Assembly (NCBI GenBank): GCA_004375715.1
Contig: SOKP01000187.1
Coordinates: 1 to 39,176 of the forward strand
Direction of reading: 5' to 3'
Source of the DNA: Promethearchaeota archaeon
GTDB taxonomy: Archaea; Asgardarchaeota; Lokiarchaeia; Sigyniarchaeales; SOKP01
Length of the DNA: 39,176 bases
Shown: positions 9,130 to 14,099 of the stretch, in pieces
How the letters are laid out: each line of letters starts with the position of its first letter
Numbering within the stretch: position 1 is the first letter of the stretch
Made by a program: the position numbers and the translations under genes
Notes under the pieces: generated by a model
What the model saw: only the letters and a program-made list of their open reading frames with translations
The model's database searches: none
Told to the model about the DNA's origin: nothing

Positions 9130-9335
9130 GGGTTCAATTTTGAATTTGTAATTATGAACCTTAATAAGCCCACAATCGATCCGAGTACGATTAAATACTA
9201 AATATATTATATTACAATTAATTGTAAATCCGCATTCTTAAGGTAAGTTTTTCTGCTTTTCACAAGTTTGAACATCTTATAATCCAATTTTATTTAAAAA
9301 CCTATTAATTGTGCTTGCGTTCATAATCATAATTT

Positions 9336-9500
9336 TTAAATTATCGAGCCAATTAAACTCAATCCAATCAAAAATCTCTTATCATTAAGCATTTTTATTG
9401 GTTTAAAATAACATTTTTCTATTCTATTTCTAAATGCGTCAAGAACATTATCTTTATTTATCTCTTCCAATCTATATTTCGGCGAAAATTTAAAATCCAT
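9336..9500 (-). pseudogene. Short N-terminal gene fragment
   Basis: A 54-codon frame starting MDFKFSPKYRLEEINKDN and ending LIGLSLIGSII before a stop. Its composition looks like a true protein start: a charged helix, then the segment RNRIEKCYFKPIKML, then a hydrophobic helix. It stops abruptly where a longer protein would be expected to continue. Downstream on the same strand another frame gives MNASTINRFLNKIGL. I read it as the remnant of a larger gene of unknown family; a genuine small protein is the alternative. Confidence 0.35.
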
Positions 9501-9638
9501 TCATATCATCTTTCTTATTTTGGACAATTTACATTATTTGTCCCATGTATTGTAAATATTTCTAACTTACTTACAGATGACCTTTATTACTTAATTAAAA
9601 ATAAGAATAAATTTTTTTCTTATAGCTAATACTTGTTT

Positions 9639-9834
9639 TTAGTTAAACGCTTCTCTGTGAGCCGTCTTATTTCTCTCATCACCTATAACTTCACTTGGGC
9701 TTTTAATCGACTCTAGCTCAAAATTATTAAAAATAAATTTTAAACAGTTTTCGAGATTGTTTATATTTTTGGATTAGAGGTTTGAACTGTCTTGCATTTT
9801 GTTTTAAACAATAACCACTGAGCTTGTCTCTAAT
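9639..9834 (-). pseudogene. Remnant of a HEPN-domain protein
   Basis: Two overlapping minus-strand frames look like one frameshifted gene end. The upstream frame reads IRDKLSGYCLKQNARQFKPL. The next frame (about 9773-9639) ends with IGDERNKTAHREAFN and a stop. RNKTAH is an R-x4-H motif in the position typical of HEPN ribonuclease domains. No upstream portion with a start codon remains, so this is a decayed 3' end. A HEPN relic beside the intact Abi_C/HEPN-like gene at 9970 suggests repeated turnover of such genes in this island. Confidence 0.4.
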
Positions 9835-9969
9835 ATTTTTTTTTTTCCTAATCCTTTCTTTTTATTTTAAAATTCAATATAAATCTTAATAAAACTTATT
9901 TAGGTGTCTTTCCACTATTTATTTGAAGAAAAAAATCGAGGAAATTATTAGTGATAAGTGAATTAACGA

Positions 9970-11337
9970 ATGAAGTTTTCTCAGAATAAAAATAATTTGA
10001 CATATAGTTATAATACAATTGCTATCAAAGAAGCACTTACAAAATTTTCAAACCTTTTAATACTATTTCCATATCATCCTGGGAAATCTAAAATTGAGAA
10101 TATAGGATGGTTAACTCCTCAAAAATTCTTTCGTAAAAGTGATATTCCAAAAAAGCCCTTTTGCGACATTATTGAAATTTGCCATAGAAAAGGCTTTTCA
10201 GTGTTTGAAGATTGGCTTAGTTATATTGAAAATAATAATCCTATTAAAGGAAATATTATAGAAATTAGAAAAAAAGTGATAACTCATTTAACTGAGCTTA
10301 TACAAAATATTGGACATATAGAAGAAAATGAACGAATAATTCTCAATGATCAATTTAAGGAGTTGTATGTGTGGATTAAAACAATGTATGATAAAATTAA
10401 CTATCTTAAGAATAAGGAATGCTGGAGTTCTGAATTCTTACAACAATTAAGAAGAAGAAAAGAAATTGGGGATGCTTACACGCAATATCGGAAGATCAAG
10501 GCTAAAAAGAGGATAAAAGAAATTGAGCAATATAATCAAAGAATGGAAGAATTAACGAAAGATGATATATTTGATACTAATCTTTATAGATTATTTCCAA
10601 TGAGTTATAACCAATATAAGAAGAAAAGAAAACTTCCCAAAAGTCCTTCAGAAAAAGAAATCCTAAGATATAAATTATTAAAAATGGAATATAATTCAAA
10701 TGTTACAAATTCTCTTTATATTGATGAGCTTCCTTTAGAAATAATATTTACAGAAATTTTTTATTTCAAACATAACTTAAATGAATTTAATATCCTAACC
10801 CCACAAGAATTTGATAATTTGATTAATGAAATATTTCAATTAATGGGATATGATTGGGTATCATGTATTAATGGCGAATTAATGTTTATAGGATATAGCA
10901 TAGAGGAAAAAGAGGAAAGAGAAGTCTTTAGATATTTAAAGGAATATCGAAAAGTAATCGAGAATCTTGAAAAAGCCAAACAACATATCCTGGAAACAGA
11001 CTGGAATAGTGTCCCTTTGTATTGTTGCAAAGCTATTGAGCACTATTATAAAAATTTATTAGGACAAAAAAAAGAATTTGAAAAATACCCAATATCTATA
11101 TTAACTCAAAAAATAATAGAGGAAAAGAATATAAATTCTCTCTTTAAAAATTCAGATATTGGTATTACCGATGGAATTAAATATCTATTACGATCAGGGA
11201 TAAATTTAATTGGTGCTCTTAGGAATAGGAAGGATTCAGCTCATGGTAATCTCCTTGATGTAGAAGATTGGGAAGCTAGATTAAGTTATAGTTATACAAT
11301 TTTATTGCTGAGGACATTGGAGATAATTAAAAGTTAA
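9970..11337 (+). CDS. Abi_C/HEPN-like protein, putative defence effector
   Basis: A 455-aa soluble protein. Residues about 320-455 form an all-helical domain resembling the Abi_C (abortive infection C-terminus) group of HEPN domains. It contains a helix around YCCKAIEHYYKNLL (351-364) and the signature LRNRKDSAHG (417-426), which holds R420-x4-H425, the catalytic spacing of HEPN ribonucleases. Residues 1-320 are not recognised; 150-240 are very basic and coiled-coil-like (RRRK, KIKAKKRIKEIE), possibly for RNA or protein contacts. An in-frame TAA at 9964 fixes the start at the ATG at 9970 or later. In such proteins the N-terminal part usually senses the threat and the HEPN part cleaves RNA. 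Activity is inferred from motif and context. Confidence 0.6.
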   Translation: MKFSQNKNNLTYSYNTIAIKEALTKFSNLLILFPYHPGKSKIENIGWLTPQKFFRKSDIPKKPFCDIIEICHRKGFSVFEDWLSYIENNNPIKGNIIEIRKKVITHLTELIQNIGHIEENERIILNDQFKELYVWIKTMYDKINYLKNKECWSSEFLQQLRRRKEIGDAYTQYRKIKAKKRIKEIEQYNQRMEELTKDDIFDTNLYRLFPMSYNQYKKKRKLPKSPSEKEILRYKLLKMEYNSNVTNSLYIDELPLEIIFTEIFYFKHNLNEFNILTPQEFDNLINEIFQLMGYDWVSCINGELMFIGYSIEEKEEREVFRYLKEYRKVIENLEKAKQHILETDWNSVPLYCCKAIEHYYKNLLGQKKEFEKYPISILTQKIIEEKNINSLFKNSDIGITDGIKYLLRSGINLIGALRNRKDSAHGNLLDVEDWEARLSYSYTILLLRTLEIIKS

Positions 11338-11580: not shown

Positions 11581-12567
11581 CTAATCCCCCAAAAACTTAG
11601 TTAAATTAATTTGCGTAGGTTTAGATTTTGTTTCTTCTTCTAAACCATTCTCTTCAATTTCTAATCTTGCTAATTTTTCACTTATTATTTCTGTAACATT
11701 CTTTTGAAGATTTAAGGTCTTAATTACTTTATAATTATTGTAACTTGTCTGTCTTATCCATTTAATTTTTGATAACTTACTAAAAGCCTTCCTCAACCAT
11801 TTTTTTCTAAAAAAAACAATATCGTGATCCCATCTACAATAATATTCCCTTATAATGCCTTGAACTTCATCAAATGAAAACTCTTGTTCTTTTTTATTTT
11901 GAATTATAGACGGAATTATTAATGACCACATTAAAGTTATGGTATATTGGACTGGGGGATCACTTGTAAAATAGAGTTGTTCTCCTTCCAGCAGTTTATC
12001 AATGCTAAATACCTTAGTTAACGAATTCAATAAATTATTATATTCTGTTAAGATTGTTCTATTATCTCTTAATTCAAATAAATAATATATCGTTCCTCTT
12101 TTAGGTATACTTTCTGAACGAGTAAATGTGGTTATAGAAAACTTATTTTTTTGATTTATATCAATTGCAGCTAAAAGATAATCACGTGTATCTTTATAAC
12201 TTTCAATATTTATTATAAGATTTAAAGAATAATCATTATGGGTAATAGGATTTCCGTCATCATCTAAAATAGATTCAATATTTAAATAATCAAGAATTTG
12301 TTCTAAAAAGCCTTTACTAGGACTTATAGAACTTTTTACCTCATTTATTACGAAATTATGGTCGGAATCATAAAGAATTATGTCAGGAGGTTTATTTATA
12401 GATTTTTTGGCTATATTGACTTTTCTTTCAGGAGGACAAATATTAATATTTAAATTATTGGATTTAATGAGAAATCTAATAGCTAAAATTATATCTAGAT
12501 TAATTCTATATCTATTGAATTCATCTAATAAACGTTCTATTATTTCTTCAATTTGATTTTCTAACAT
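11581..12567 (-). CDS. PD-(D/E)XK-type nuclease, putative
   Basis: A 328-aa protein. Residues 61-94 show a restriction-endonuclease-like core: PD (D62), a beta hairpin, then NEVKSS with E76 and K78 (the E-x-K pair), and QILDYL with Q90-x3-Y94, the Q-x3-Y motif of RecB-like nucleases. An N-terminal helix (IEEIIERLLDEF) precedes the core as expected. Residues about 205-300 look like a winged-helix or other small helical domain, and the tail is charged. It begins 15 bp after the stop of the 360-aa gene, so the two form an operon. With Abi_C/HEPN genes alongside, a DNA-targeting defence nuclease is plausible. The family beyond the fold is not recognised. Confidence 0.6.
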   Translation of the reverse strand: MLENQIEEIIERLLDEFNRYRINLDIILAIRFLIKSNNLNINICPPERKVNIAKKSINKPPDIILYDSDHNFVINEVKSSISPSKGFLEQILDYLNIESILDDDGNPITHNDYSLNLIINIESYKDTRDYLLAAIDINQKNKFSITTFTRSESIPKRGTIYYLFELRDNRTILTEYNNLLNSLTKVFSIDKLLEGEQLYFTSDPPVQYTITLMWSLIIPSIIQNKKEQEFSFDEVQGIIREYYCRWDHDIVFFRKKWLRKAFSKLSKIKWIRQTSYNNYKVIKTLNLQKNVTEIISEKLARLEIEENGLEEETKSKPTQINLTKFLGD

Positions 12568-12582
12568 TTTTGGATTTCTTGA

Positions 12583-13665
12583 TTACAATTTATTAGTATC
12601 GTGAAATTCTTTTCTATATTGGTCGTAATCAACTATTTCAAATTCAGAAATTCTTTCTGAAATTAAATCCAATATTCTAAACATTGACGAATTAGATCCT
12701 ATTATTTGAGGACATATCATTAAATCTCGATTACTTAGATTTTTTATTGAGTAAGTTGAATTATCTATCTGATCTCTCAGAATAATATGTAAAAAAGGAT
12801 TTCCTGAATGTAGAAGAGCATAATTACATTTTGGGAAATTTTCAATTTTATCTCTGAAATTGTTTGTTCTTTCTTTATCCGAAAAAATGGTAGAATTTAA
12901 TTTTAGTACAATTGGTCGAGATACATGATTTCTTGTAGATCTTCTTTCTCTATTATCTAATAAATTAAATTTTTGGATAACAATTGAATAAATCTTATCT
13001 AATAGTTCAATTAAATTTTTGAAATTTCCATAGTACCAAATTAGTCTATTGTATCTGTTATATTGAAACCTAAAATTTTCATTATTACTGGAGTTAAAAA
13101 GAAAAAGACCTATTGTATCAATATATTTTTTTTCATTCTCTAATTCTAAAATCTTTGAATTTACATCTTCCACAATATAATCTATTGCTCTTTCTATTGG
13201 GTTTTTTCTTGGTTTCTTTTTCTCACGTGCTTTTCGATATATTAGTACCTCTAATTCAATTCTATAAACTTCTCTTTTTAAATAAATTGATAATAAATCT
13301 TTTATCTCAGATTGGGACAAGAATGTTGCAGTAATATCGGGGAAAAATTCTTTAAAAAATGAACCGATACGACTCTTTAAAAATCTTGATTTTATATATC
13401 CTATTGTTAAAATGAATTTGTTTTCTTCTGAGATAATTAGATAAAAATAGTTTTTTTGAGGTATTGTTTGAAAATTAGATTTACTCTCCATGATGATTTT
13501 TTTAATAGAATTGCCAACATCATGTATTTGCCATTTGAACTCGTAATCTCTTGTTTTCATTTCTGAATTTATTAAAATCTCAGAAAGTACCGAGAAATTA
13601 CGTATTAAAAATAATTGACATTTCAATCCATATTTACTTATTGTTAGTAATCTCTTCTTCTTCAA
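12583..13665 (-). CDS. Unknown 360-aa partner of the PD-(D/E)XK nuclease
   Basis: A 360-aa basic protein with no signal peptide or clear membrane segment; I do not recognise it. Visible features: a very basic stretch at about 153-163 (KAREKKKPRKNP), a central helical region rich in Asn and Tyr, then RNHVSRPIVLKL and a C-terminal part with LLHSGNPFLHIILRDQ. The start is TTG at 13665, preceded by an in-frame TAA at 13675-13677. Tight spacing to the downstream nuclease implies a joint function, perhaps target recognition or scaffolding. It is rich in Lys, Asn and Ile with A/T third positions, like the other island genes. Confidence 0.55.
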   Translation of the reverse strand: MKKKRLLTISKYGLKCQLFLIRNFSVLSEILINSEMKTRDYEFKWQIHDVGNSIKKIIMESKSNFQTIPQKNYFYLIISEENKFILTIGYIKSRFLKSRIGSFFKEFFPDITATFLSQSEIKDLLSIYLKREVYRIELEVLIYRKAREKKKPRKNPIERAIDYIVEDVNSKILELENEKKYIDTIGLFLFNSSNNENFRFQYNRYNRLIWYYGNFKNLIELLDKIYSIVIQKFNLLDNRERRSTRNHVSRPIVLKLNSTIFSDKERTNNFRDKIENFPKCNYALLHSGNPFLHIILRDQIDNSTYSIKNLSNRDLMICPQIIGSNSSMFRILDLISERISEFEIVDYDQYRKEFHDTNKL

Positions 13666-13747
13666 TTTCTTCTCTTAATAGATGTTTTTGATTTATAAAG
13701 TGATCAAAAAACTTTCGATAGGTAAAAAAAATTGAATTTTCTAACAT
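13634..13747 (-). CDS. Possible 37-aa leader ORF of the nuclease operon
   Basis: A small frame starting ATG at 13747 (MLENSIFFTYRKFF...) and ending with an acidic tail (REEIEEEEITNNK). It overlaps the first codons of the 360-aa gene by 32 bp in another frame. Its start region (AAAATGTTAGAAAAT) equals the start region of the nuclease gene at 12567 over 15 bases. It could be a small antitoxin or leader peptide translationally coupled to the operon, a remnant of a duplicated gene start, or chance in AT-rich DNA. Confidence 0.25.
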   Translation of the reverse strand: MLENSIFFTYRKFFDHFINQKHLLREEIEEEEITNNK

Positions 13748-14099
13748 TTTATGATAAAATATTGATATTCTTAATTAAGTTATTCTCCAATCTTTTATGT
13801 ATAATTTATTCTGGATTGTTAACTAACATAGTAATATTTGGATAGTTTAAAAGAGTATCCTTCCAAATAAAAGACATGAATCGTTTATAATTTAGTAAAT
13901 TCTAAAATAATCTCAATTATTAATAAGTAATAGAGAAATTATTTAATTGGACAGTTAGTTCAATAATTTATTTGATTGTCTTTTCTTAATTCAAAAAGAA
14001 GTAATTTAAAGCTCTTTTAGATTCCAACAATAGTTTTTATTTCATAGCACAATCTATACATTACTACTAAAACTAATTATTCAAAGAGTTTTATTAACT
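13748..14099. other. Divergent intergenic region before glpK
   Basis: About 280 bp of AT-rich DNA up to the right repeat, then the 71 bp of the repeat that precede the glpK ATG. It must hold the promoter of the reverse nuclease operon. The AT palindrome ATTTTAT-G-ATAAAAT at 13746-13760, about 80 bp upstream of the TTG at 13665, could be a TATA region or operator, but such palindromes are common in DNA this AT-rich. Nothing else is recognised. Confidence 0.4.

Follow-up and report, generated by a model that had tools for sequence, protein, structure and literature searches.

A two-gene module of archaea and bacteria joining a protein of predicted RdgC/CENP-L fold to a PD-(D/E)XK protein with a putative clamp-docking tail

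Two adjoining genes of an Asgard archaeon form a module that recurs in several phyla of archaea and bacteria: the first protein (A) has the RdgC/CENP-L fold, to judge from the model of a family member, and the second (B) is a PD-(D/E)XK protein whose C-terminus looks like a sliding-clamp docking peptide matched to the host's own domain. On balance, and with modest confidence, we regard A-B as a defense-type conflict module whose action on DNA would take place at the replication fork or behind it. That function is inferred, and no defense phenotype is known. In two haloarchaeal lineages the active site of B has been lost and a membrane-protein gene lies alongside, a pattern suggestive of an exchange of effectors.

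The locus and its island

The window (the whole stretch of DNA analyzed, 39,176 nucleotides, from a contig of a Lokiarchaeota-like Asgard MAG) carries the pair on a 5-kb island with 24.8% GC, against 32.3% in the rest of the window, with a membrane-protein gene on one side and an FGGY kinase gene on the other (Table 1). A first inspection made without database searches (the sequence-only reading) had described a basic protein of no recognized family followed, after 15 bp, by a nuclease. The ORF coordinates bear out order and gap, the pI of A agrees, and neither A nor B has a family in Pfam, NCBIfam, PHROGs, or PADLOC, the sole PHROG match below 0.01 for the pair having E 0.005 over 31 residues. 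The same reading allowed for a third gene and ended the operon at 13747, which is where a 37-aa ORF overlapping A begins. This ORF, the sole basis for such a gene, has no support as a gene of its own and is likelier to be a piece of A's 5' end that has been displaced, or a product of chance; the N-terminus of window A is shortened, and the missing piece may sit in that other frame. A 26-nt direct repeat (85%) at 12550-12575 and 13730-13755 spans the start codon of B in one copy and that of this ORF in the other, and represents either a common translation-start context or a duplication scar.

An Abi_C/HEPN-like neighbor and HEPN debris had also been proposed. The 455-aa gene does have a HEPN-like R..H string, but its matches to Abi_C (E 0.05) and Hypoth_Ymh are both sub-threshold; the debris is supported by a HEPN-like remnant interrupted by many stops at 9130-9970 (-) (SEVIGDERNKTAHREAFN; ERNKTAHRE), which separates the 455-aa gene from the gene for the membrane protein. 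Membership of the 455-aa gene in the module was rejected, as it is not found beside A-B at other loci. HEPN-type companions nonetheless adjoin A-B in two Asgard loci, the window and L095: in L009/L095 the gene 105 bp upstream of A (7091-8443 in L095, contig C3 of the distant Asgard genome G178) is a different one, with a HEPN-like R-x4-H string, R-N-D-V-V-H.

Table 1. Features of the A-B locus, in positions of the window
Feature	Position	Strand	Basis or remark
Gene A	12583..13665	(-)	360 aa, TTG start, pI 9.5; ORF list, family HMM E 1e-104
Gene B	11581..12567	(-)	328 aa, ATG start; ORF list, AlphaFold2, Foldseek, active-site columns
A-B intergenic gap, 15 bp	12568..12582	(-)	Order and near-zero spacing shared with homologous loci
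B active-site region, P61-D62 (beta2) to E76-x-K78 (beta3)	12334..12387	(-)	DSSP; invariant in intact group
B Q90-x3-Y94, RecB-type motif, helix alphaB	12286..12300	(-)	AlphaFold2 model/DSSP and active-site columns
B C-terminal PIP-box-like peptide QINLTKF (QxxLxxF), predicted PCNA-docking tail	11593..11613	(-)	Motif pattern
37-aa ORF overlapping A start, other frame	13634..13747	(-)	Possibly displaced A N-terminus
455-aa neighbor gene, weak Abi_C/HEPN-like C-terminus	9970..11337	(+)	Island companion, outside conserved module

Pairing and distribution of the module

A weak match to A in another Asgard genome sat immediately before an unrecognized B. From this locus tblastn led to plasmids of four haloarchaea and two Arthrobacter, and a genome scan gave 25 loci in Lokiarchaeota, Nanoarchaeota, haloarchaea, Actinomycetota, and Planctomycetota; Blastococcus is another of the actinobacteria with a pair. 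At every locus with A (about 33), B lies immediately 3', with gaps mostly of -4 to +23 bp. When profiles of A and B were run independently against 394 haloarchaeal genomes, both matched the identical 15, at adjoining coordinates (chance of such agreement, about 2e-27); among about 220 Asgard genomes, the B search matches the four with a convincing A (G000, G031, G144, and G178). The pairing proposed by the sequence-only reading is thus recovered from either side, A-first and B-first searches agreeing that the homologs always adjoin, and chance is excluded by conservation of the adjacency across phyla. A and B do not appear to be two halves of one family, an idea for which hhalign finds nothing.

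The module is present in about 2% of Asgard genomes, 4% of haloarchaea, and 0.3% of the actinobacterial class sampled, and A is absent from all 23 congeners with which the window genome was compared. Copies of A-B occur on several haloarchaeal and Arthrobacter plasmids, and many others on multi-megabase chromosomal contigs. So sporadic a distribution is that of an accessory module which moves horizontally. A viral origin is unsupported: three scans of viral contigs with A profiles found no relatives, and the phage collection also lacks A. As a separate observation, a fifth Asgard genome (G139, locus L006, contig C1, 4620-5252) has a C-terminal remnant of B with one internal stop and without A; the remnant retains the PIP-like end QTDLLKY.

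Pfam annotation of 103 neighboring proteins at homologous loci includes integrases (4), HNH nucleases (4), transposases, C5-, N6-, and N4-methylases, and type III helicases, and methylases dominate the PADLOC tallies. Such surroundings are like those of mobile or defense islands, a comparison made without a control set and with most neighbors unannotated.

Protein B: a PD-(D/E)XK core in several active-site states

The sequence-only reading had recognized a RecB-like nuclease in B from D62, E76-x-K78, and Q90-x3-Y94, and the structure prediction agrees. An AlphaFold2 model (window protein with 22 homologs; pLDDT 82, pTM 0.81) has an N-terminal PD-(D/E)XK domain, then a winged helix, then a long terminal helix. 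DSSP assigns to the first of these H2-36, E42-44, E63-66, E72-78, H85-95, and E113-120, the alpha-beta-beta-beta-alpha-beta core of the superfamily, with D62 opening strand beta2, E76 and K78 on beta3, and Q90 and Y94 in the following helix. Foldseek comparison of the model with the PDB gives only weak matches, the best at E 0.016, to the Shedu protein SduA, to DpnI and SfsA, and to winged-helix domains; the matches to SduA, DpnI, and SfsA are supportive of the predicted core, not decisive alone. Searching solved structures by sequence gave nothing of use.

Conservation separates three states of the site. At ten of ten intact-type loci, the window included, the five residues D, E, K, Q, and Y are invariant within the motifs P61-D62, E76-x-K78, and Q90-x3-Y94. 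The actinobacterial proteins (ten loci) keep D, E, Q, and Y and have alanine or serine at position 78, and eight of them have a lysine one helix later, in alphaB; lysine migration is a known phenomenon in the PD-(D/E)XK superfamily. At fifteen haloarchaeal loci E and K are wholly gone and Q nearly always so. Halorarius/Natronomonas have the intact type, and Haloferax marinum and Haloarcula the inactive one. The inactive proteins are not decaying and are under purifying selection: in close haloarchaeal pairs their dN/dS is about 0.04-0.08, and that of A is 0.02-0.07.

Loss of the active site in company with membrane-protein genes

All fifteen inactive-B loci, and none of the ten intact loci, have an adjacent membrane-protein gene on the same strand (Fisher p 3e-7, kinship ignored). 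Two families are involved, one downstream by 4-9 bp at ten loci (210-240 aa, 2-4 hydrophobic segments), the other upstream by 3-102 bp at five (440-461 aa, one or two C-terminal segments). On the A tree the inactive-B loci form two separate lineages, with support of 100/99 each, and so represent two independent events involving two unrelated membrane genes. Two events on a tree cannot reach significance (sign test p 0.5), and coupling between loss of the site and presence of a membrane gene, as in an effector swap, is therefore suggestive and not statistically proven on the tree.

The downstream family gives weak matches to the PADLOC profile of PycTM (three of seven members, best E 3.4e-5), in which a bias from membrane composition is possible. 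In Pycsar, PycTM is the effector that disrupts the membrane (PMC11224242). The simplest reading of these variants is that A and B together are the recognition part of a system in which one output can be exchanged for another, nuclease for membrane damage.

The tail of B: a putative clamp-docking peptide

Window B ends in TQINLTKFLGD. The usual archaeal ending of B is QxxLxxF/Y (among others QSSLDDF, QTSLGQF, and QPTIGEF), the form of a PCNA-interacting PIP box, while bacterial ends (QLSLF, QPSLF, QDTLF, QGSLF, QESLF, QLPLF) take the form of the beta-clamp motif QxxLF. Within the last 20 residues the PIP pattern is present in 14 of 22 archaeal tails and QxxLF in 9 of 11 bacterial tails, where shuffled tails lead one to expect 0.19 in each case; none of 20,000 shuffles equalled either count. 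There are no crossovers among these 22 and 11 tails: no archaeal B has the bacterial form, and no bacterial B the PIP form. Related rows mean that the counts are not phylogenetically independent. A change of motif with the host's clamp is nonetheless hard to explain by descent alone, and the tail looks like a docking peptide for the clamp of the host's own domain, binding itself being an inference from these motifs.

The assembly to which the window belongs yielded neither PCNA_N nor PCNA_C, an absence that we take as a gap because this assembly is 84% complete and a search of 18 congeners found PCNA_C in 17.

Acidic-aromatic ends also occur on haloarchaeal A proteins (DFDDYF, YSLTDFVA, QTMADFF), and actinobacterial A proteins have VSLDDLV (examples of these ends are L024, L037, L038, L036, and L048). 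Such tails are possibly a second interaction peptide. In two haloarchaea, EQTMADFF and DYTMGDFF of A are PIP-like, fail the strict pattern, and were left uncounted.

Protein A: fold, signature, and the divergent window copy

The fold of A was modeled on the family member at L033 rather than on the window protein (pLDDT 88, pTM 0.87). In the PDB, Foldseek ranks RdgC of E. coli (E 1.4e-4) and CENP-L of humans (E 1.6e-4) highest, each with probability 1.0 but with low TM-scores of 0.3-0.37; in BFVD, a viral library, phage RdgC-type proteins match, likewise at probability 1.0. The mutual resemblance of RdgC and CENP-L/CENP-N, and their resemblance to TBP, were already known (PMC4080450), and the title of PDB entry 2owy gives RdgC a toroidal DNA-binding architecture. 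As sequences, A and RdgC have no detectable similarity in an hhalign profile comparison (probability 0.1), and Pfam RdgC (PF04381) matches none of 23 A family members; A as an RdgC at the sequence level is rejected accordingly. On the strength of the model we assign A the RdgC/CENP-L fold, without claiming membership in either family.

Conservation in A is strongest in a C-terminal domain with the signature HxNPYxHxxxxDxxDGSxxD, perhaps a surface for binding or for catalysis. In the window copy the signature has diverged (HSGNPFLH, with an inserted G; D..DNSTYS, with the last aspartate lost), and its branch is the longest in the whole A tree, at 4.9 changes per column. With B intact and A divergent, the window module may be fast-evolving or beginning to decay.

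Proposed function and alternatives

The sequence-only reading was correct on the pair, yet missed the clamp tail, the fold of A, the variants with inactive B and membrane genes, and the divergence of window A. Its proposal of a defense module gains strength from the sporadic distribution, from carriage on plasmids, and from the swapping of effectors, although PADLOC, Pfam, and neighborhood data give no proof. As we picture such a module, A would bind DNA via its RdgC-like body and B via its winged helix, the two proteins being inferred to form a complex. The C-terminal peptide of B would dock on the sliding clamp (PCNA in archaea, the beta clamp in bacteria), and the PIP or QxxLF tail would place A-B on newly replicated or clamp-loaded DNA. 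The trigger might be a feature by which foreign or disturbed replication differs. At intact loci, the window among them, the PD-(D/E)XK site of B would then cut the flagged foreign or abnormal DNA, such as that of a plasmid or virus in replication; in the two haloarchaeal lineages, where B has stayed in place under purifying selection without its catalytic site, the added membrane protein would fire as effector, probably by membrane damage as in abortive infection. The bolder proposition, an undescribed cross-domain immune module in which an RdgC/CENP-L-like DNA-ring protein and a clamp-docked PD-(D/E)XK protein sense foreign replication and respond with DNA cleavage or a membrane effector, is put forward tentatively; we would not yet call it probable.

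The alternative that survives best, though we think it unlikely, is a clamp-coupled nuclease of repair or replication surveillance, resembling EndoMS/NucS and serving genome maintenance, with A as its DNA-binding specificity factor. NucS is RecB-like, has the same archaeal and actinobacterial distribution, and makes the same tail switch, from PIP in archaea to xxxLF in actinobacteria, the clamp activating its cleavage (PMC8228993); the description of RdgC as a recombination-associated protein and the strength of purifying selection on A-B point the same way. A maintenance nuclease would however hardly be confined to 0.3-4% of genomes, missing from all sampled congeners, and in part plasmid-borne, NucS itself is not matched, and a role in repair offers no rationale for a loss of catalysis that goes with a membrane gene.

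Less likely again is a part in the upkeep of plasmids or other mobile elements, in which A would be a CENP-L/RdgC-like DNA clamp for segregation, copy control, or DNA protection and B would handle replication intermediates. Carriage on several haloarchaeal and Arthrobacter plasmids fits this idea, as do ParA beside A-B in Natrinema and ParB in Arthrobacter, integrases nearby, and the CENP-L similarity of A; but many copies are on multi-megabase chromosomal contigs, the module has no fixed replication or partition gene, and the variants with a membrane protein are not easily accounted for. We think it very improbable that A-B is a pair of the toxin-antitoxin kind, with A holding a toxic nuclease B in check and the two retained for addiction rather than invader sensing: the tight operon with the partner first, the nuclease second, and the two never separate would suit it, but A and B are both large, one would not expect a toxin to have a clamp-docking tail, and fifteen B proteins lack the active site while both genes remain under strong purifying selection.

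Should the bolder proposition hold, A-B would be the first defense system known to us that docks on a sliding clamp, and clamp docking would be a route by which prokaryotic immunity locates invading DNA. The exchange of nuclease for membrane protein would be a natural experiment on the separation of sensor and output. A CENP-L-fold protein would also be placed in Asgard archaea, and the fold in such a genome bears on the origins of inner-kinetochore proteins, with the caveat that the likeness is one of structure alone. Because the module is small and isolates of haloarchaea and actinobacteria carry it, these ideas are testable now.

Relation to known systems

The sequence-only reading could match the pair to no named system, and no PADLOC model of a known anti-phage system matches A or B. 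A text search of a 2026 survey of archaeal immunity (PMC12988326) finds neither RdgC nor a two-gene system mentioned. Among the known systems that come close, EndoMS/NucS resembles B as a RecB-like nuclease of the PD-(D/E)XK type that bears a clamp peptide at its C-terminus. It is however a single widespread gene with an N-terminal DNA-binding and a C-terminal catalytic domain, whereas B has the reversed domain order, a winged helix, an obligate partner, a sporadic distribution, and inactive membrane-linked variants; no NucS domain is matched in B by Pfam or NCBIfam. SduA of Shedu, B's best though weak structural match, is likewise a PD-(D/E)XK defense nuclease. Type I Shedu is one protein whose own N-terminal clamp senses DNA ends (PMC12904381), and no SduA/DUF4263 match to B is given by Pfam or PADLOC.

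For A the comparison is with RdgC and CENP-L/CENP-N (Iml3/Chl4), which share its predicted fold and supply its best Foldseek matches in the PDB and BFVD; A differs in its own HxNPYxH..DxxDGSxxD signature, its linked nuclease, a low global TM-score, and the lack of sequence similarity. The haloarchaeal variants invite two further comparisons. Pycsar, with other abortive-infection systems whose effectors can be exchanged, follows a similar logic, and its PycTM is weakly resembled by the downstream membrane family, but no cyclase was recognized at the loci examined, and A and B are without PADLOC models. Kiwa combines a membrane protein (KwaA) with a DNA-binding partner that does not cleave (KwaB), as the haloarchaeal variants appear to do (PMC12904381), whereas intact-type A-B loci encode nucleases without a membrane gene, and PADLOC reports no KwaA or KwaB match.

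Each fold is thus known by itself, and exchangeable effectors follow a known logic. We found no described system in which a protein of RdgC/CENP-L fold is coupled with a PD-(D/E)XK protein bearing a clamp tag, and it is this combination that appears to be new.
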